The translations under genes and the position numbers were made by a program. Source: Natrinema salinisoli (GTDB taxonomy: Archaea > Halobacteriota > Halobacteria > Halobacteriales > Natrialbaceae). From it: a stretch of DNA of 64,000 nucleotides. The notes under the pieces were generated by a model. That model was given only the letters and a program-made list of their open reading frames with translations. It was not told the origin of the DNA and ran no database searches. The stretch covers positions 2,790,001-2,854,000 of the forward strand of contig NZ_CP084469.1 of assembly GCF_020405205.1 (NCBI RefSeq). The letters run 5' to 3'. Of the stretch, positions 5,795 to 29,758 are shown piece after piece (the first letter of the stretch is position 1; each line of letters opens with the position of its first letter).

Positions 5795-6388
5795 TTACAA
5801 CAACCCGTCCTCTTTCGCCAGCAACAGCCCCCCCAGCGTCGCGTCGTTCGTCGGCTGCTCGCGAGCCCGCTCGAGCGCCTCGTCGACCGGCACCGTCGTC
5901 ACCTCGAGGAACTCGTTGCTGTCGAGTTCCCGCTCGCCGGGTTCGAGTCCCTCGGCGTAGACGATCGCGCGGTCGTGTCGGAGGACGCCGGTTGCGACCG
6001 CATACTCCTGCAACAGGGCCGTACTCGAGGGTCGGAAGCCGGTTTCCTCCTCGAGTTCGCGCGTCGCCGCCCCCGTGTAGGACTCGCCGTCCTCGACGAT
6101 TCCCGCGGGGAGCTCGAGGTGGGTCTCGCGGATGGTGGGGCGGTACTGTTCGACGAACAGAATGCGATCGTCGCTGCCGCTCGCACCCTCACCGGCAACA
6201 CCGTCCATATCCGCGAGGACGCCGCCGTCGATCCGCGCGACCACGACGACCGCGGGCGGCAGATCCGCCCAGTAGTATCGCTTCTGCGTCCCGTCGGGCT
6301 GTTCGAGCAGATCGTATCCGCCGTCGTACCAGCCCGTCTCGTACTCGGTTCGCTCCTCGAGCAGGTCCCACTCGTCGGGTGTCGTCAT
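5795..6388 (-). CDS. NUDIX hydrolase (ADP-ribose pyrophosphatase-like)
   Basis: A 197-residue NUDIX hydrolase. The NUDIX box is complete (G96, E102, then RELEEETGF at 110-118), matching Gx5Ex7REUxEExGU, with a metal-binding glutamate cluster. The upstream strand FVEQYRPTIRETHLELPAG is typical of ADP-ribose pyrophosphatases, so ADP-ribose or a related nucleotide sugar is the likely substrate. The ATG at 6388 is preferred to the TTG three codons earlier. It is tail-to-tail with the small membrane protein gene. Confidence 0.92.
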   Translation of the reverse strand: MTTPDEWDLLEERTEYETGWYDGGYDLLEQPDGTQKRYYWADLPPAVVVVARIDGGVLADMDGVAGEGASGSDDRILFVEQYRPTIRETHLELPAGIVEDGESYTGAATRELEEETGFRPSSTALLQEYAVATGVLRHDRAIVYAEGLEPGERELDSNEFLEVTTVPVDEALERAREQPTNDATLGGLLLAKEDGLL

Positions 6389-23502: not shown

Positions 23503-24612
23503 TTATCCCTCTAGTAACGCGTCGTCACCGTAATCCTCCCGGATCGATTCGAAGTACTCGAGCTGTTGCTGTAACCGTTTGGGCATCCCTTCGTACACGT
23601 GTGCGAAGATTTCCTCCGGCTCGGGTCGTTCGACGGATTCGGCCGAGTCGACGGCGTCGGCGACCGTCTCCTCGATCCGGGATTCGATCGCGTCGACCCG
23701 TTCCTCGTAGAGGATCCCGTTCGACCGCAGATACGTCTCGAGGCGCGGGATGGGATCCTTCTGTTTCCAGCGTTCGACCTCGTCGTCGTCCCGGTAGACT
23801 GACGGGTCGTCGGCGGTGGTGTGAGCACCGAACCGGTACTGGACCGCTTCGATCAGCGTCGGCCGCAGTTCGTCCTCGTCGGGGTCTTTCGCCTTTTCGA
23901 CGGCCTCCCTGGTGACTTTGTACACCGCCAGCGGGTCCATTCCGTCGACCTGCACGCCCTCGAATCCGTAGGCGGTGGCCTTCTGTGCGAGGGTCGCACT
24001 GGCCGTCTGGCGCTCGCGGGGCACCGAGATGGCCCACTGGTTGTTGTTACAGAAGAAGACGTTCGGGGTGTCGAAGACGCCCGCGAAGTTCAGGCCCTCG
24101 TGGAAGTCACCCTCGGAAGTCGCCCCGTCGCCGAAGTAACAGATGAAGGCCCTGTCCTCGTCGCGGAGTTTCGAGGCCCAGGCCGCACCGGTCGCGTGGG
24201 GGATCTGCGTCGCGATGGGGACGGCGACCGAGAAGATGTTGACGTCCTCGGGCACGTAGTTGCCCTGCTCGTGGCCCATCCAGTACAGCAGGGTTCGCTC
24301 GAGGGAGAGTCCGCGAACCAGCCCGACGCCGTGTTCGCGGTAACTGGGGAAGACCCAGTCCTCCGCGTCGAGCGCGTGGGCGCTGCCGACCTGTGCGCCC
24401 TCCTGTCCCGACAGCGGCGGATAGGTGCCCATCCGCCCCTGGCGCTGGAGGCTGACGGCCCGCTCGTCGAACCGGCGCACGAGCCGCATCTGTTCGTACA
24501 TCTCGACGAGCCGGTCTTCGGAGAGGTCCGGCACGTCGGCACCCTCTCGAACCCGACCCGCCTCGTCGAGTACCTGTACTCGTTCACGGGGATCGCGCTG
24601 TAGCGTACTCAC
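23503..24612 (-). CDS. pdhA: 2-oxoacid dehydrogenase E1 alpha subunit
   Basis: A 369-residue thiamine diphosphate enzyme subunit. The cofactor motif runs from GDG (residues 161-163, in [20 protein letters not shown]) to NNN (189-191, in [11 protein letters not shown]). Phosphorylation-loop-like [14 protein letters not shown] is present. I chose the GTG at 24612 ([10 protein letters not shown]), because the 30 residues before it do not resemble the family. It is the first gene of the E1alpha-E1beta-E2-E3 operon and its promoter must lie within the 376-bp gap upstream. Confidence 0.95.
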
Positions 24613-24988
24613 GGGAAGACCCACCTGTACATACTCGGGGTAACTATCGCTCAAGGTAAAGGAGTTTCCCAAATAGTTTACTATCAATGAGATTCTTGCC
24701 AAGCAGTCGGGAACCCACTGTACGATAGCGTACGGACCTGGACAGGAATGAGTGAAACTGACTGTTTCTATTTGTTTGTCTAATTCCGGGCGCTAAATCG
24801 ACGCGGAGACTGGACAAAAGTGAAGTTCGATGACATTCAGTCGACGGCGGACACGGAAGATCGAGAGGACACGCCGCCGTTGTTGCCATAGGGACCAGCT
24901 TCGGGACACATTTCGGTCACGACAGCGATAGCGGATCACGCTATGGCGTCCCGCTCGAGGAGAGGAGCGGTCGAGTACTCGACTCCAG
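24613..24988. other. 376-bp gap upstream of the dehydrogenase operon
   Basis: No gene is visible. The part next to pdhA contains AT-rich segments (24655-24690) that probably hold its promoter. The rest marks the left edge of the lower-GC accessory island. Confidence 0.45.
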
Positions 24989-25312
24989 TCAGACCCAGCC
25001 TCGCTCGCGGAACCAGGCACGGAAGCGCATGAGATACGCCCAGTAGTACACGAGTAGAACGATACTGCCAACGAGAAGCAAAAGCTGCGTGCGTGCTGTT
25101 GCCCAGACCGAACTGTATTTTCCAGCACCCCAGTTGATTTGTTCGGCGAAAGCGGGATGAAGTGCGACGAGTGCATCGCCGAGTACGAACCGGAACAAGA
25201 GCGCGAGTCCGATAATCGTCACCGACGCCGGGATAAAAAAGGAGATGAGCAACTCGTTCCGGAGTTTTTCCTCGTCGTCCTGATCGTAGATGGGATACTT
25301 CGGTTCGCGCAT
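24989..25312 (-). CDS. Small two-helix membrane protein
   Basis: A 107-residue protein with a charged N-terminus (MREPKYPIYDQDDEEKLRNE), a first helix at about 22-48, a loop with NWGAGKYSSVW, a second helix at about 75-96 and a basic C-terminal end (RFRAWFRERGW). I do not recognise the family. It lies at the border of the duplicated accessory region and is transcribed away from the first copy of the membrane protein gene. Codon use is less GC-biased than in housekeeping genes. Confidence 0.65.
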   Translation of the reverse strand: MREPKYPIYDQDDEEKLRNELLISFFIPASVTIIGLALLFRFVLGDALVALHPAFAEQINWGAGKYSSVWATARTQLLLLVGSIVLLVYYWAYLMRFRAWFRERGWV

Positions 25313-25433
25313 GGGGACTATTCCATTACCGGATATCTATAACATTTTCCGAGAATAGAAGAGATAGTAGGATTGGCCTTGGTTCGATAAGATCCGGGAC
25401 AGGAAAGATAGGTAACCGAAAGAATAGTTAATT

Positions 25434-26216
25434 ATGACAATAACAGCACTGTCGATGGTTTCGAACGTCTATCAGGGGTTTTGTCCGTTCCGTCGGTACC
25501 ACCGTGTCGTTCACTGGGTGGGATATCTCTCCGGGTTCGGCGTCTGGATCTGTTGCTATCTGATCGCCGGGTTCATCATTCCATCAGTCGGTGTCGTCTC
25601 CGTGGCAGTCACGACCGTAGTCGCATCCGTACCAACTGGAATCTACATGGGACTACTCTACAGTCGGGCCGTCGGGAGTCCATGGGGAAACATGTTACTC
25701 CCGATAGGTGTTCCGGTAATGACCCCAGAGTTGCTGTTGACTCGTCCGTTTCCGGGGACAGCGATGCCCGAAAGCGATTACGGTACCCTCGTGATTATCG
25801 GCGGCGGGATGATCGGGGGAACACTCGTTGCACTCCGAACGATCCAGAACAAGTACGCGACGATGGACGACGTGTTCGCGTGGGAACAAACAGTCATGCC
25901 CTACAGCGTCCGTGTCGTCGACGACGATTGGGTCGCGAAACAGCCGTCGTACGACCGCGAGTACAAAACTGATCGACCGCTCCTCGATCCACGCAGTACA
26001 GAGTTGTACGACCTCCATTTCGACTTCAAAAAGAGTCTGTTCGGAATGGTCGTCGCTGCACCCGCGGTCGCCGCGAGTTTATACGGATCAGCGACGTACG
26101 ATGACCTCGCATTCGAAGTGGCAATGATGTTTGCGTTCCTCTATCTGTTCCACAACTCACTGCAGGTGGACCAGCGAGATACCGAGCGTTCGACAGGCGT
26201 CACGACCCAGCAGTGA
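25434..26216 (+). CDS. Unknown membrane protein, duplicate copy 1
   Basis: A 260-residue protein whose N-terminal half has about four helices (first from residue 27, WVGYLSGFGVWICCYLIAGF) and whose C-terminal half is a soluble segment (EQTVMPYSVRVVDDDWV) followed by two more helices. I do not recognise the family. A paralog at 27182 is nearly identical over the first 35 residues and about two-thirds identical overall. If the start is homologous to the paralog, it would be the ATG at 25455 (MVSNVYQG). It converges with a broken gene at 26444-26940. Confidence 0.75.
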   Translation: MTITALSMVSNVYQGFCPFRRYHRVVHWVGYLSGFGVWICCYLIAGFIIPSVGVVSVAVTTVVASVPTGIYMGLLYSRAVGSPWGNMLLPIGVPVMTPELLLTRPFPGTAMPESDYGTLVIIGGGMIGGTLVALRTIQNKYATMDDVFAWEQTVMPYSVRVVDDDWVAKQPSYDREYKTDRPLLDPRSTELYDLHFDFKKSLFGMVVAAPAVAASLYGSATYDDLAFEVAMMFAFLYLFHNSLQVDQRDTERSTGVTTQQ

Positions 26217-26284
26217 CCCCCTCTTGGCGCTGGTGGCAGACGCAGCACTCTCGAGGTGATCCCCCGCAGATCACAGTGGGTGTG

Positions 26285-26390
26285 AGGAATGGGTTGTGAC
26301 ACGGTTTCACAGTACAGGAATCCGAGATTCGTGTCGGCGATGAAACGTCCCGTCTCGTACTCGTCTACCTGATCGCAGCGGGAACCGTTT
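26285..26390 (-). pseudogene. Relic 1 of the lipA 3' end
   Basis: On the minus strand this stretch can be read as YETGRFIADTNLGFLYCE, matching YETWRRVAEEELGFLYCA near the C-terminus of the intact LipA (28912-29015). At DNA level an ungapped 73-base comparison gives about two-thirds identity. There is no reading frame for the rest of LipA, so it is a decayed fragment left by duplication. Confidence 0.7.
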
Positions 26391-26443
26391 GCTGCACTGA
26401 ATGGCTGGATTCCAGCCGATTACCGAATTGAGAATCGACGTTC

Positions 26444-26940
26444 CTATTCGGTCTCTTGCTCGTTTCGAGTCTCCTCGAAGAAGGCTGGCGGAAAATGCTC
26501 TCGATTCCAGTCGTCGATCCGCCCGGGGCCGAGTATGCCGAACCACACGAGCAGACAGCCAAAGGCGGAAAAGAACGCGGGGCAGGTGAGCGCAAGGACC
26601 ACGCTAGCCGTGTAGAGACGATCGATTTGGATGTCTCCGGCGAGAACCATTCCACCTCCGAAGAGAAATGGCCAGCCCGCACTCAGTATGAGATTCAAGA
26701 CGGGGCCGCCGAGTGCGCGAGTGAATGCGATGCCGAGAACGAGTCCACAGAGTGCGCCGCCAGCAGAAATCGCTGTCACTGTGCCACCGCCACCGAGCGA
26801 GACGTATCCAACTATCCAGGCCACACCTGCATAAACATCGCTGCAAAGTGCGAGAGTGTGGATCCCCCCTCGAACAGGGAGAGTATCCCTGAAACCGTCT
26901 GTGGCACGGTTATTTCATACTCGGGCTTAAATTTCGGCAT
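26444..26940 (-). pseudogene. Broken membrane protein gene, paralog of 28171-28668
   Basis: This copy starts at ATG 26940 (MPKFKPEYEI) and reads in step with its paralog (MPKSKSRRKV) through SLFEGGSTLSHFAA, then meets a stop (TAG) after WPG. A one-base deletion near 26835 explains this: the following frame continues AGVAWIVGYVSLGGGGTV and runs to 26444, matching the paralog to its end. The total length, 497 bases, is one short of the paralog's 498. The downstream frame could be translated from an internal GTG at 26824 (126 residues, three helices), so residual function is not excluded. Confidence 0.8.
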
Positions 26941-27009
26941 CGGGCGAGAGGTTGAATATTTTCACTGATAGCTTTTGTGTCACTGGCCAATAGTGCACCA
27001 TCGGCCGCA

Positions 27010-27154
27010 ATGAGTCTGTTTTTGCCATTTACGCCCTCCAGTACCGGCTCTTCCTTTTCCACGATAGTCAGGCTGACTAGCTTTCTTCTCGATGCGGGCA
27101 CGTAGTCTAGCAAGTCGTTTCTGTAGCTTTCGGATTCGACGACCGAAAAGATCG
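27010..27154 (-). other. Possible transposase-derived fragment
   Basis: One frame on the minus strand reads GRRIRKLQKRLARLRARIEK and goes on with a lysine- and glycine-rich stretch. This basic helical pattern recalls the N-terminal part of TnpB/OrfB proteins of IS200/IS605 elements. No other part of a transposase is seen. The basic composition contrasts with the acidic proteome, which supports foreign origin, but the identification is weak. Confidence 0.3.
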
Positions 27155-27181
27155 TGTACTCTAGCAATAACAGCACTGTCG

Positions 27182-27931
27182 ATGGTTTCGAACGTCTATC
27201 AGGGGTTTTGTCCGTTCCGTCGGTACCACCGGGTCGTTCACTGGGCGGGATACCTCTCCGGGTTCGGCGTCTGGATCTGTTGCTATCTAGTCGCCGGGTT
27301 CGTTGTTCCTTCGGTCGGTCTCATCTCCGTTGCAGTCACTACCGCAGTTGCGGCCGTCCCGACTGGGATCTACATGGGGCTGCTCTACAGTCGGGCTGTC
27401 GGGAGTCCGTGGGGGAACATATTGTTCCCGACGGCTGTACCGCTACTGATCCCAGGGCTGTTTCTCACTCACCCGTTCCCGGGGACGACGATGCCCGAGA
27501 GCTGGTTTGGAACACATATTACTGTCGCCGGTGGGATGATCGTAGGGTTAGCCGTCGTACACAGGACGATCCAGAACGGATACGCGAAGATGGACGACAT
27601 CCTCGCGTGGGAGCGAACCGTCATGCCCCACAGCGTCCGTGTCGTCGACGACGAGTGGCTCGCCGAACAACCGGCGTACGACCGCGAGTACAAAACTGTC
27701 CGACCGGTCCTCAATCCTCGCATTACAGCGTGGTACGACGTCAGCTTCGATCTCAAAGGCGGCCTGTTCGGGATGGTCCTCGCTGCGCCCGCGGTCGCGC
27801 TCGGTGCGTACGGAGTAGCGACGTACGATGACGTCGCATTCAACGTGGCGATGACGGTCGCGCTCTGCTATCTGCTTCACAACACCCACCAGATCGATCG
27901 ACAGGATACCGAGGCTCACCGAACGGGTTGA
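27182..27931 (+). CDS. Unknown membrane protein, duplicate copy 2
   Basis: A 249-residue paralog of the protein at 25434-26216. Both share MVSNVYQGFCPFRRYHRVVH and the soluble motif SVRVVDD.W.A.QP.YDREYKT, with several helices on each side. DNA identity is close to complete over the first 110 bases, starting just before the ATG, and lower later. The sequence before the ATG differs from copy 1 and has no start codon at the place of copy 1's ATG (25434), so 27182 is the only good start. It is followed by a lipA relic and an intact partner gene. No function is known to me. Confidence 0.75.
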   Translation: MVSNVYQGFCPFRRYHRVVHWAGYLSGFGVWICCYLVAGFVVPSVGLISVAVTTAVAAVPTGIYMGLLYSRAVGSPWGNILFPTAVPLLIPGLFLTHPFPGTTMPESWFGTHITVAGGMIVGLAVVHRTIQNGYAKMDDILAWERTVMPHSVRVVDDEWLAEQPAYDREYKTVRPVLNPRITAWYDVSFDLKGGLFGMVLAAPAVALGAYGVATYDDVAFNVAMTVALCYLLHNTHQIDRQDTEAHRTG

Positions 27932-27987
27932 AGCAACACTGGCCCCTTTGAACGACCCAGCGATCTCGAGGGAATATCTCACAAATA

Positions 27988-28125
27988 ACGGCTGACAGGT
28001 AGTCGAAGTCGGCGCGAGGAATGCACCATGACCCGCTCGCACAGTAAAATCCTAGACACTCTTTGATAACGGAACGCCACGTCTCGGATTCGTCCGACTG
28101 ATCGGAGCGCTGGAAGCTGTACTGG
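27988..28125 (-). pseudogene. Relic 2 of the lipA 3' end
   Basis: On the minus strand this reads ETWRSVIKECLGFYCASGSW, close to ETWRRVAEEELGFLYCASGP in intact LipA, with one small deletion. The DNA match runs from GCACCATGACCCGCT to GAGCGCTGG. The rest of lipA is absent. It occupies the same place in the second duplicated unit as relic 1 does in the first. Confidence 0.75.
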
Positions 28126-28170
28126 CTAACGAGGACCCCAGCCAATCACCGAATCGAAAGCTGACAGTTT

Positions 28171-28668
28171 CTATTCGGCATCTGGCGTGTTCTCAGTTTC
28201 CTCGAGGAAGGCTGGCGGGTGTGTCTGTCGAGCCCAGTCGTCAGCACGACTAGAACCGAGGATAGTGAACCACACGAGCATACAGCCGACGGTCGAAAAG
28301 AGCGCAGGCCAGAGAAGCGCGACTCCCATACTAAATGCGTCTAAACGCTCGATCTGAGCGTTTTCGACAATGATGATGGCACCCAAAAAAAGGGACGGCC
28401 AGACGAGACTCATCATGAGATTTAATCCGGGTCCGCCAAGTGCCCGAGTAAAGGCGATACCGAGAACGAGCCCACAGAGGGTACCGCCAGCAGCGAGAGC
28501 AAGCAGTGTCCCGCCACCGCCGAACGAGATGTATCCGACTAGCCAGGCTCCACCGGCAGCGAATAGTACTGCCATGTGCAAGAGTGTCGAGCCACCCCTG
28601 AACAGCGAACTTGCTCCTTTAATTGTCTGCGGGAAGACAACTTTGCGCCGGGATTTAGATTTCGGCAT
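28171..28668 (-). CDS. Unknown four-helix membrane protein (intact paralog)
   Basis: A 165-residue protein with a basic N-terminal tail (MPKSKSRRKVVFPQTIKGAS), four transmembrane helices (residues about 38-56, 60-85, 92-110, 116-142) and an acidic C-terminus. Glycine-rich loops (SFGGGGT, ALGGPG) separate the helices. The ATG at 28668 is chosen because it aligns with the start of the broken copy at 26940. It converges with the membrane protein gene at 27182, with a lipA relic between them. I do not recognise the family. Confidence 0.72.
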   Translation of the reverse strand: MPKSKSRRKVVFPQTIKGASSLFRGGSTLLHMAVLFAAGGAWLVGYISFGGGGTLLALAAGGTLCGLVLGIAFTRALGGPGLNLMMSLVWPSLFLGAIIIVENAQIERLDAFSMGVALLWPALFSTVGCMLVWFTILGSSRADDWARQTHPPAFLEETENTPDAE

Positions 28669-28792
28669 TGAGTGAGTGATTGAATGTTTCATTAATAGTT
28701 TTTATGTCATAGAATATGACACATCATCAGCTTCAGTGAGTTGCTGTTTCTGCCGTTTCGTTTCCCCGTTCGTCTGTGAGACGTAACACTGG

Positions 28793-29758
28793 TCAGTCCG
28801 ACGCGCTCGCCTCGTCCGGACCGGTACGTGCTTCCCGTCTGGCCTCCGTAACGCTCTTGCCCTCGCGCAGGACCGCATCGACGAACAGCTCGCCGGCCTT
28901 GTACGACGATCGCACCATCGGCCCGCTGGCACAGTAGAGGAACCCTAACTCCTCTTCGGCGACCCGTCGCCACGTCTCGTACTTGTCCGGCGGGTCGTAG
29001 CGCTGGACCTTGAGGTGGTCCCGCGACGGCCGCAGGTACTGCCCCAGCGTGACGATGTCGACGCCGCGCTCGCGGCAGTCGGCCAGCGTCTGGTAGACCT
29101 CGTGGTCGTACTCGCCGTGGCCGAGCATAACCGAGGTCTTGGTGTAAATGTCGCTTTCCCGATCGACCTGCTCGAGCACCGAGAGGCTCTGGTCGTAGCC
29201 GGCACGGCGGTCCCGGACGGGGAATTGAAGCCGTTCGACGGTCTCGACGTTGTGGGCGATCACGTCCGGATCGGCGTCGATGATTTTCCGGACGAGTCGT
29301 TCTTCGCCCTGAAAGTCGGGAATGAGGACCTCGACGAGAATGCCCGGGTGTCTGTCCTTGATTTCGCGGATCGTTTCCGCGAAGTGGCCCGCACCCTGGT
29401 CGGGCAGGTCGTCCCGGTCGACGCTCGTCAGGACGACGTAATCGAGCCCGATCTCGGCGACTGCGTCGGCGACGTTCGCCGGCTCGTCGGGGTCGAGCGC
29501 CTCCATGCCGCCGGTCCGGACGTCACAGAAGTTACACGCTCGAGAGCACCGATCGCCCATCAGCATGAACGTGGCCGTGCCGCCGTCGCCATCACCCGTG
29601 CCGGCACCACCGGACCAGCATTCGCCCAGATTCGGGCAGTTGGCCTCTTCGCAGACGGTGTGTAGGTTCCGGTCGCGCAGCGTCTCTCGAATGTCGGTGA
29701 ACTCCTGGCCCGACGGCGGCCGCATCTTCAGCCAGTCGGGCTTGCGCGCGCGGCTCAT
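28793..29758 (-). CDS. lipA: Lipoyl synthase
   Basis: A 321-residue radical SAM enzyme that inserts two sulfur atoms into octanoyl-E2. The auxiliary cluster cysteines are 36, 41 and 47 (CEEANCPNLGEC) and the SAM cluster cysteines are 71, 75 and 78 (CSRACNFC). The C-terminal YCASGPMVRSSYKA segment is characteristic. The start at 29758 (MSRARKPDW) fits the family; the upstream extension does not. It lies about 4 kb from the dehydrogenase operon whose E2 is its expected substrate. Two decayed copies of its 3' end lie downstream. Confidence 0.97.
   Translation of the reverse strand: MSRARKPDWLKMRPPSGQEFTDIRETLRDRNLHTVCEEANCPNLGECWSGGAGTGDGDGGTATFMLMGDRCSRACNFCDVRTGGMEALDPDEPANVADAVAEIGLDYVVLTSVDRDDLPDQGAGHFAETIREIKDRHPGILVEVLIPDFQGEERLVRKIIDADPDVIAHNVETVERLQFPVRDRRAGYDQSLSVLEQVDRESDIYTKTSVMLGHGEYDHEVYQTLADCRERGVDIVTLGQYLRPSRDHLKVQRYDPPDKYETWRRVAEEELGFLYCASGPMVRSSYKAGELFVDAVLREGKSVTEARREARTGPDEASASD

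Follow-up and report, generated by a model that had tools for sequence, protein, structure and literature searches.

Two old and diverged membrane-gene units carrying relics of lipA lie between pdhA and lipA in Natrinema salinisoli

Homology-facilitated illegitimate recombination is able to stack genes at a site while leaving 3′ gene pieces behind, a process for which a precedent has been described (PMC5361080). In the Vibrio immunity arrays, duplication was rejected in favor of stacking by means of one test, namely, whether a copy is closer to that of another strain (PMC5361080). Among haloarchaea, gene-sized exchange across genera is common (PMC4500145). The locus described here lies in a stretch of 64,000 nucleotides of Natrinema salinisoli, referred to as the window (contig NZ_CP084469.1, positions 2,790,001 to 2,854,000 of the forward strand; the coordinates below count from its first letter).

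The interval between pdhA (23503-24702, minus strand) and the intact lipoyl synthase gene lipA (28793-29755, minus strand) spans 3.9 kb and is composed of X107, a gene for a small membrane protein of 107 aa (24989-25312, minus strand), and two head-to-tail units, each comprising a membrane gene A on the plus strand followed by a decayed piece of lipA and a membrane gene B, both on the minus strand. The units (25415-27030 and 27142-28760) share 72% DNA identity. Comparison of the sequence with itself by BLAST yields one long off-diagonal (25415-27030 with 27142-28758; 71.8% identity over 1,643 columns), which upholds the description in the first-pass annotation of a tandemly repeated unit with a lipA fragment in each copy. 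The first unit contains A1 (25434-26216), relic 1 (26302-26385) and B1 (26444-26940), while the second contains A2 (27182-27931; 249 aa), relic 2 (28015-28114) and B2 (28171-28668; 165 aa). As that annotation had read them, B1 is disrupted, with its frameshift near 26837, and B2 is intact, and the non-coding DNA upstream of both genes also matches (26941-27030 with 28669-28760; score 49 versus a shuffle maximum of 26). The plus-strand A genes that it had placed at 25434 and 27182 are likewise present, but A1 alone has the ATG at 25434, the start common to all copies being 25455, with 27182 in A2. The spacer at the junction of the two units (27031-27131) is devoid of detectable homology; the idea that it might be another relic, either of lipA or of the DNA upstream of A, is unsupported, as it matches nothing. 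An 88-aa ORF in this area (26910-27176) lacks a family match and was treated as a chance ORF. The GC content of the tract is 0.50-0.60, versus about 0.65 in the flanks.

The same self-comparison, which had been proposed as a check on the repeat, displays diagonals for the units and their B copies and, as a second diagonal, for lipA and relic 2 (28904-29007 with 28015-28114; 71% identity, E 1.5e-7). Aligned to lipA, relic 2 reaches a score of 52, whereas the best of 1,000 shuffles gives 30. By itself relic 1, with 31 where the shuffles reach 30, would be marginal, but it lies collinear with relic 2 and carries the same derived bases. The relics are therefore real, although they had been assigned to the 3′ end of lipA and correspond instead to codons ~250-284 of 321 and not to the very end, the final ~37 codons being unrecognisable. 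At the sites where three lipA genes agree, 26 derived changes are common to both relics, 23 are found only in relic 1 and 8 only in relic 2, and at 11 sites all differ. The 26 shared changes suggest that both relics probably descend from a single relic that was already decaying before the unit existed twice, and that is thus older than the second unit. Second copies of lipA, with 74-76% protein identity, exist on other contigs in two genomes, at G073:C4:36876-37799 (L069), where the copy has two internal stops, and at G055:C2:432010-432924 (L070). They were discarded as the source of the relics, which are matched by the chromosomal lipA and not by these copies.

Neither A, B and X107 nor the proteins bridging A and B match any Pfam or NCBIfam family above cut-off. 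Profile searches of 391 genomes of the class retrieved relatives of A in 14 and of B in 19 (window genome counted), with three places (G107, G111 and G117) matched by both profiles; one ORF rescored with both of them gave 3e-10 and 2e-7. After such rescoring, many haloarchaeal membrane proteins of ~180 aa match both profiles. The direct comparison of A with B (E 1e-4, hhalign probability 58%) is weak taken alone; it is the ~180-aa proteins matching both profiles that indicate distant homology. Judged from sequence, then, A and B are distantly related multi-pass membrane proteins of one haloarchaeal family. Members of a set of haloarchaeal membrane proteins of ~180-250 aa with a GGPVLN or VGSP.GN motif (for example at loci L077-L106) are matched by both profiles, a set in comparison with which A and B are rare and have diverged; those of its members that were tested likewise had no match above cut-off in Pfam or NCBIfam. 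By hydropathy scan, A has three or four hydrophobic segments and B four, and structure prediction reached a mean pLDDT of 35 for A and 52 for B, too poor for a fold search. The dN/dS values, 0.17-0.35, indicate constraint. Our best guess is that A and B are most likely accessory proteins of the membrane, non-essential and tolerated in extra copies; the broken B1 fits this view. Elsewhere, a distant A homologue lies ~440 bp from a gene of the Fic/Doc family (Pfam PF02661) in G095 (L071 3588-3989 and 4432-5157), and in G150 and G231, from another family, an A-like gene is directly followed by a conserved gene for a membrane protein of ~107 aa (L077 2233-2556; L078 1105-1422).

lipA adjoins pdhA in all 28 of the other Natrinema genomes, and in 26 of them the gap between both genes is empty and measures 180-328 bp. 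These include the closest relative, G069, which displays 95% DNA identity for both pdhA and the body of lipA. The best match to gene A outside the window genome is found in Natrinema limicola (contig NZ_AOIT01000048), whose gap of 1,274 bp contains A alone, facing an intact lipA; neither B nor a lipA relic was found in this gap. The N. limicola gene is frameshifted near its C-terminus (L005 ~6930). In G068, the gap measures 1,177 bp and contains only a decayed homologue of X107 (L044 1650-1969), which indicates that this site has been used more than once. Identity to G069 stays at 98-100% until near the start of pdhA and then falls to about 55-60%; toward lipA, an identity of about 90-98% across the gene drops to about 55% in its last ~50 bases. 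In the short edge segments that were compared (58-143 bp), the 143 bp before pdhA (24703-24845), which form the left edge of the exchanged block, are 76% identical to N. limicola, 70-71% to G060/G061 and 62% to G069, while the lipA tail (28793-28850) is 74-75% identical to G060/G061 versus 60% to G069. From the sharp drops at both edges we infer that the intergenic region and its cargo were exchanged as one block.

The divergence between the copies provides a measure of their age. Copies of a recent duplication are expected to be nearest each other and younger than the split from a relative without the block. For A, the first pattern is confined to the 5′ segment 25465-25565: the A2 protein shares 90% identity with N. 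limicola A (over 217 aa) versus 71% with A1, and dS is 0.46 between A2 and N. limicola A, 0.50 between A1 and A2 and 0.54 between A1 and N. limicola A, distances that mix several histories given the mosaic pattern of the gene. As for the second, dS is 1.08 between B1 and B2 and 0.50 between A1 and A2, versus 0.23 for lipA between the window and G069 (0.70 between the window and N. limicola), so that the copies are older than the split from this empty relative. A relative of the alleles in another strain was recognized for A2, in N. limicola A; for A1 and B no donor was found, nor was any close homologue of B outside the window genome. Given the age and divergence of the units, and the closer relationship of A2 to N. 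limicola A than to A1, a recent local duplication is unlikely. The duplication proposed by the first-pass annotation holds in form, but its copies go far back (dS 0.5-1.1), and neither the closest relative nor 25 other congeners have the block, which suggests that the units were probably acquired already diverged and then stacked.

The history of gene A is not uniform along its length. Informative sites among A1, A2 and N. limicola A split into three segments: a mixed one (25436-25708), with 22 sites uniting A1 and A2, 18 uniting A1 and N. limicola and 13 uniting A2 and N. limicola; a second one (25716-26036), where A2 agrees with N. limicola at 63 of 81 sites; and a third one (26045-26177), where it is A1 that does so, at 30 of 43. 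The three-segment model gains 40.5 log-likelihood units over a one-segment model, compared with at most 13.8 in 40 permutations. This significant mosaic agrees with the earlier proposal that the 5′ ends of A were later converted, and the sites in 25465-25565, which favor A1 with A2 by 11 versus 3 and 1, lend modest support to gene conversion between the two copies. On the other hand, a plus-strand block of 58 bp (25438-25495 in A1, 27165-27222 in A2) is shared unchanged by N. limicola A (L005 ~6245-6302), and is therefore not evidence for conversion within this genome. The block spans the shared start codon, and none of 5,000 permutations reaches such identity, which exceeds what the protein sequence needs in three genes that are otherwise diverged. 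It was not found elsewhere in 125 genomes of the family, and no RNA structure was detected in it (z +0.5 to +1.4). Conservation accounts for the identity at least as well as conversion. The 3′ segment of A (26045-26177) points to a second exchange that was absent from the earlier reading.

The empty site, the exchanged edges, the old divergence, the shared relic and the mosaicism of A constitute the observed base of the explanation that we prefer, with somewhat better than even confidence: that diverged alleles were imported and stacked, anchored in lipA. The 3.9-kb stretch would then consist of accessory genes brought into the lineage as a block through gene exchange. An incoming fragment carrying B and the 3′ end of lipA would have paired with the resident lipA, its other end being joined illegitimately; this pairing would have restored a full lipA and stranded the old 3′ piece between A and B. 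Later, a further, diverged A-relic-B allele would have been stacked in the same manner, and recombination among the copies would have turned A into a mosaic. The intact lipA at 28793 and the relic at 28015-28114, beyond B2, are the anchor gene and the fragment that stacking expects to flank inserted genes. The search of relatives turned up no genome with an A-relic-B unit in single copy, so that donor and intermediates alike are hypothetical.

Ranked below import and stacking, and in our opinion possible rather than probable, is an older local origin, in which an ancestral A-relic-B unit was duplicated in tandem, its copies diverged with conversion in A, and the array was either lost widely or moved as a block. 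The head-to-tail arrangement, the common order and unit length, the inherited relic with its shared derived sites and the sites uniting A1 and A2 in the 5′ part of A all speak for it, and if such a duplication were ancient and the entire array were then transferred, a similar picture would result. It is harder to reconcile with the absence of the block from 26 of 28 congeners, the nearest one included, since vertical descent would require many losses, as well as with copies that predate the split from G069 and an A2 that resembles A1 less than it resembles N. limicola A.

Two further explanations borrow from known elements and appear far less probable. It is quite improbable that A and B serve protection, their diverged versions having been gathered against different threats, as in the T6SS arrays of Vibrio; the anatomy is the same, with diverged genes stacked beside 3′ pieces of an anchor gene, and purifying selection and patchy distribution agree with it, but neither a toxin nor an effector gene lies next to the block, a housekeeping gene acts as the anchor, B1 has decayed and a family match is lacking. 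By extension of this analogy, the Natrinema pdhA-lipA gap might be a collection point, anchored in lipA, for diverged alleles of a fast-evolving membrane-gene pair that protect against neighbours, an archaeal counterpart of immunity arrays, which we consider a long shot. Equally doubtful is the site-specific insertion of an element with its attachment site in the 3′ end of lipA, which would have restored the gene and displaced its 3′ fragment, in the manner of islands in tRNA genes. The order of intact lipA, cargo and lipA 3′ fragment is the expected one and the lipA tail was exchanged; however, the ORFs of 24700-28793 include no integrase, their only plausible genes being X107, A and B, relatives of A or B were detected neither in plasmids nor in viral contigs and those of A not in phages either, and N. 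limicola A adjoins lipA without any relic. Searches also revealed no recombination machinery or end sequence of the block, and no Rfam match in 24700-29000.

If diverged alleles were indeed imported and stacked, the locus would be a clear record of how genes were stacked, step by step, beside a housekeeping gene in archaea, where a scrap of the anchor gene acts as a molecular fossil that helps to order the events, and it links two unannotated membrane proteins, A and B, to one haloarchaeal family. It is an example of an already known kind of process. As in the orphan immunity arrays of the Vibrio cholerae T6SS (PMC5361080), additions would have succeeded one another at one site anchored by a conserved gene, with diverged copies nearer to those of other strains, 3′ pieces of the displaced gene and recombination mosaics. 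Unlike in those arrays, the Natrinema anchor is the housekeeping gene lipA, no effector is present, and the relics share derived changes, which suggests that the unit brought the relic in with it. With the homologous replacements described between haloarchaeal genera (PMC4500145), the locus has in common that a short block lying between conserved genes was exchanged, whereas the Natrinema block adds extra genes and a duplicated piece of its flank.
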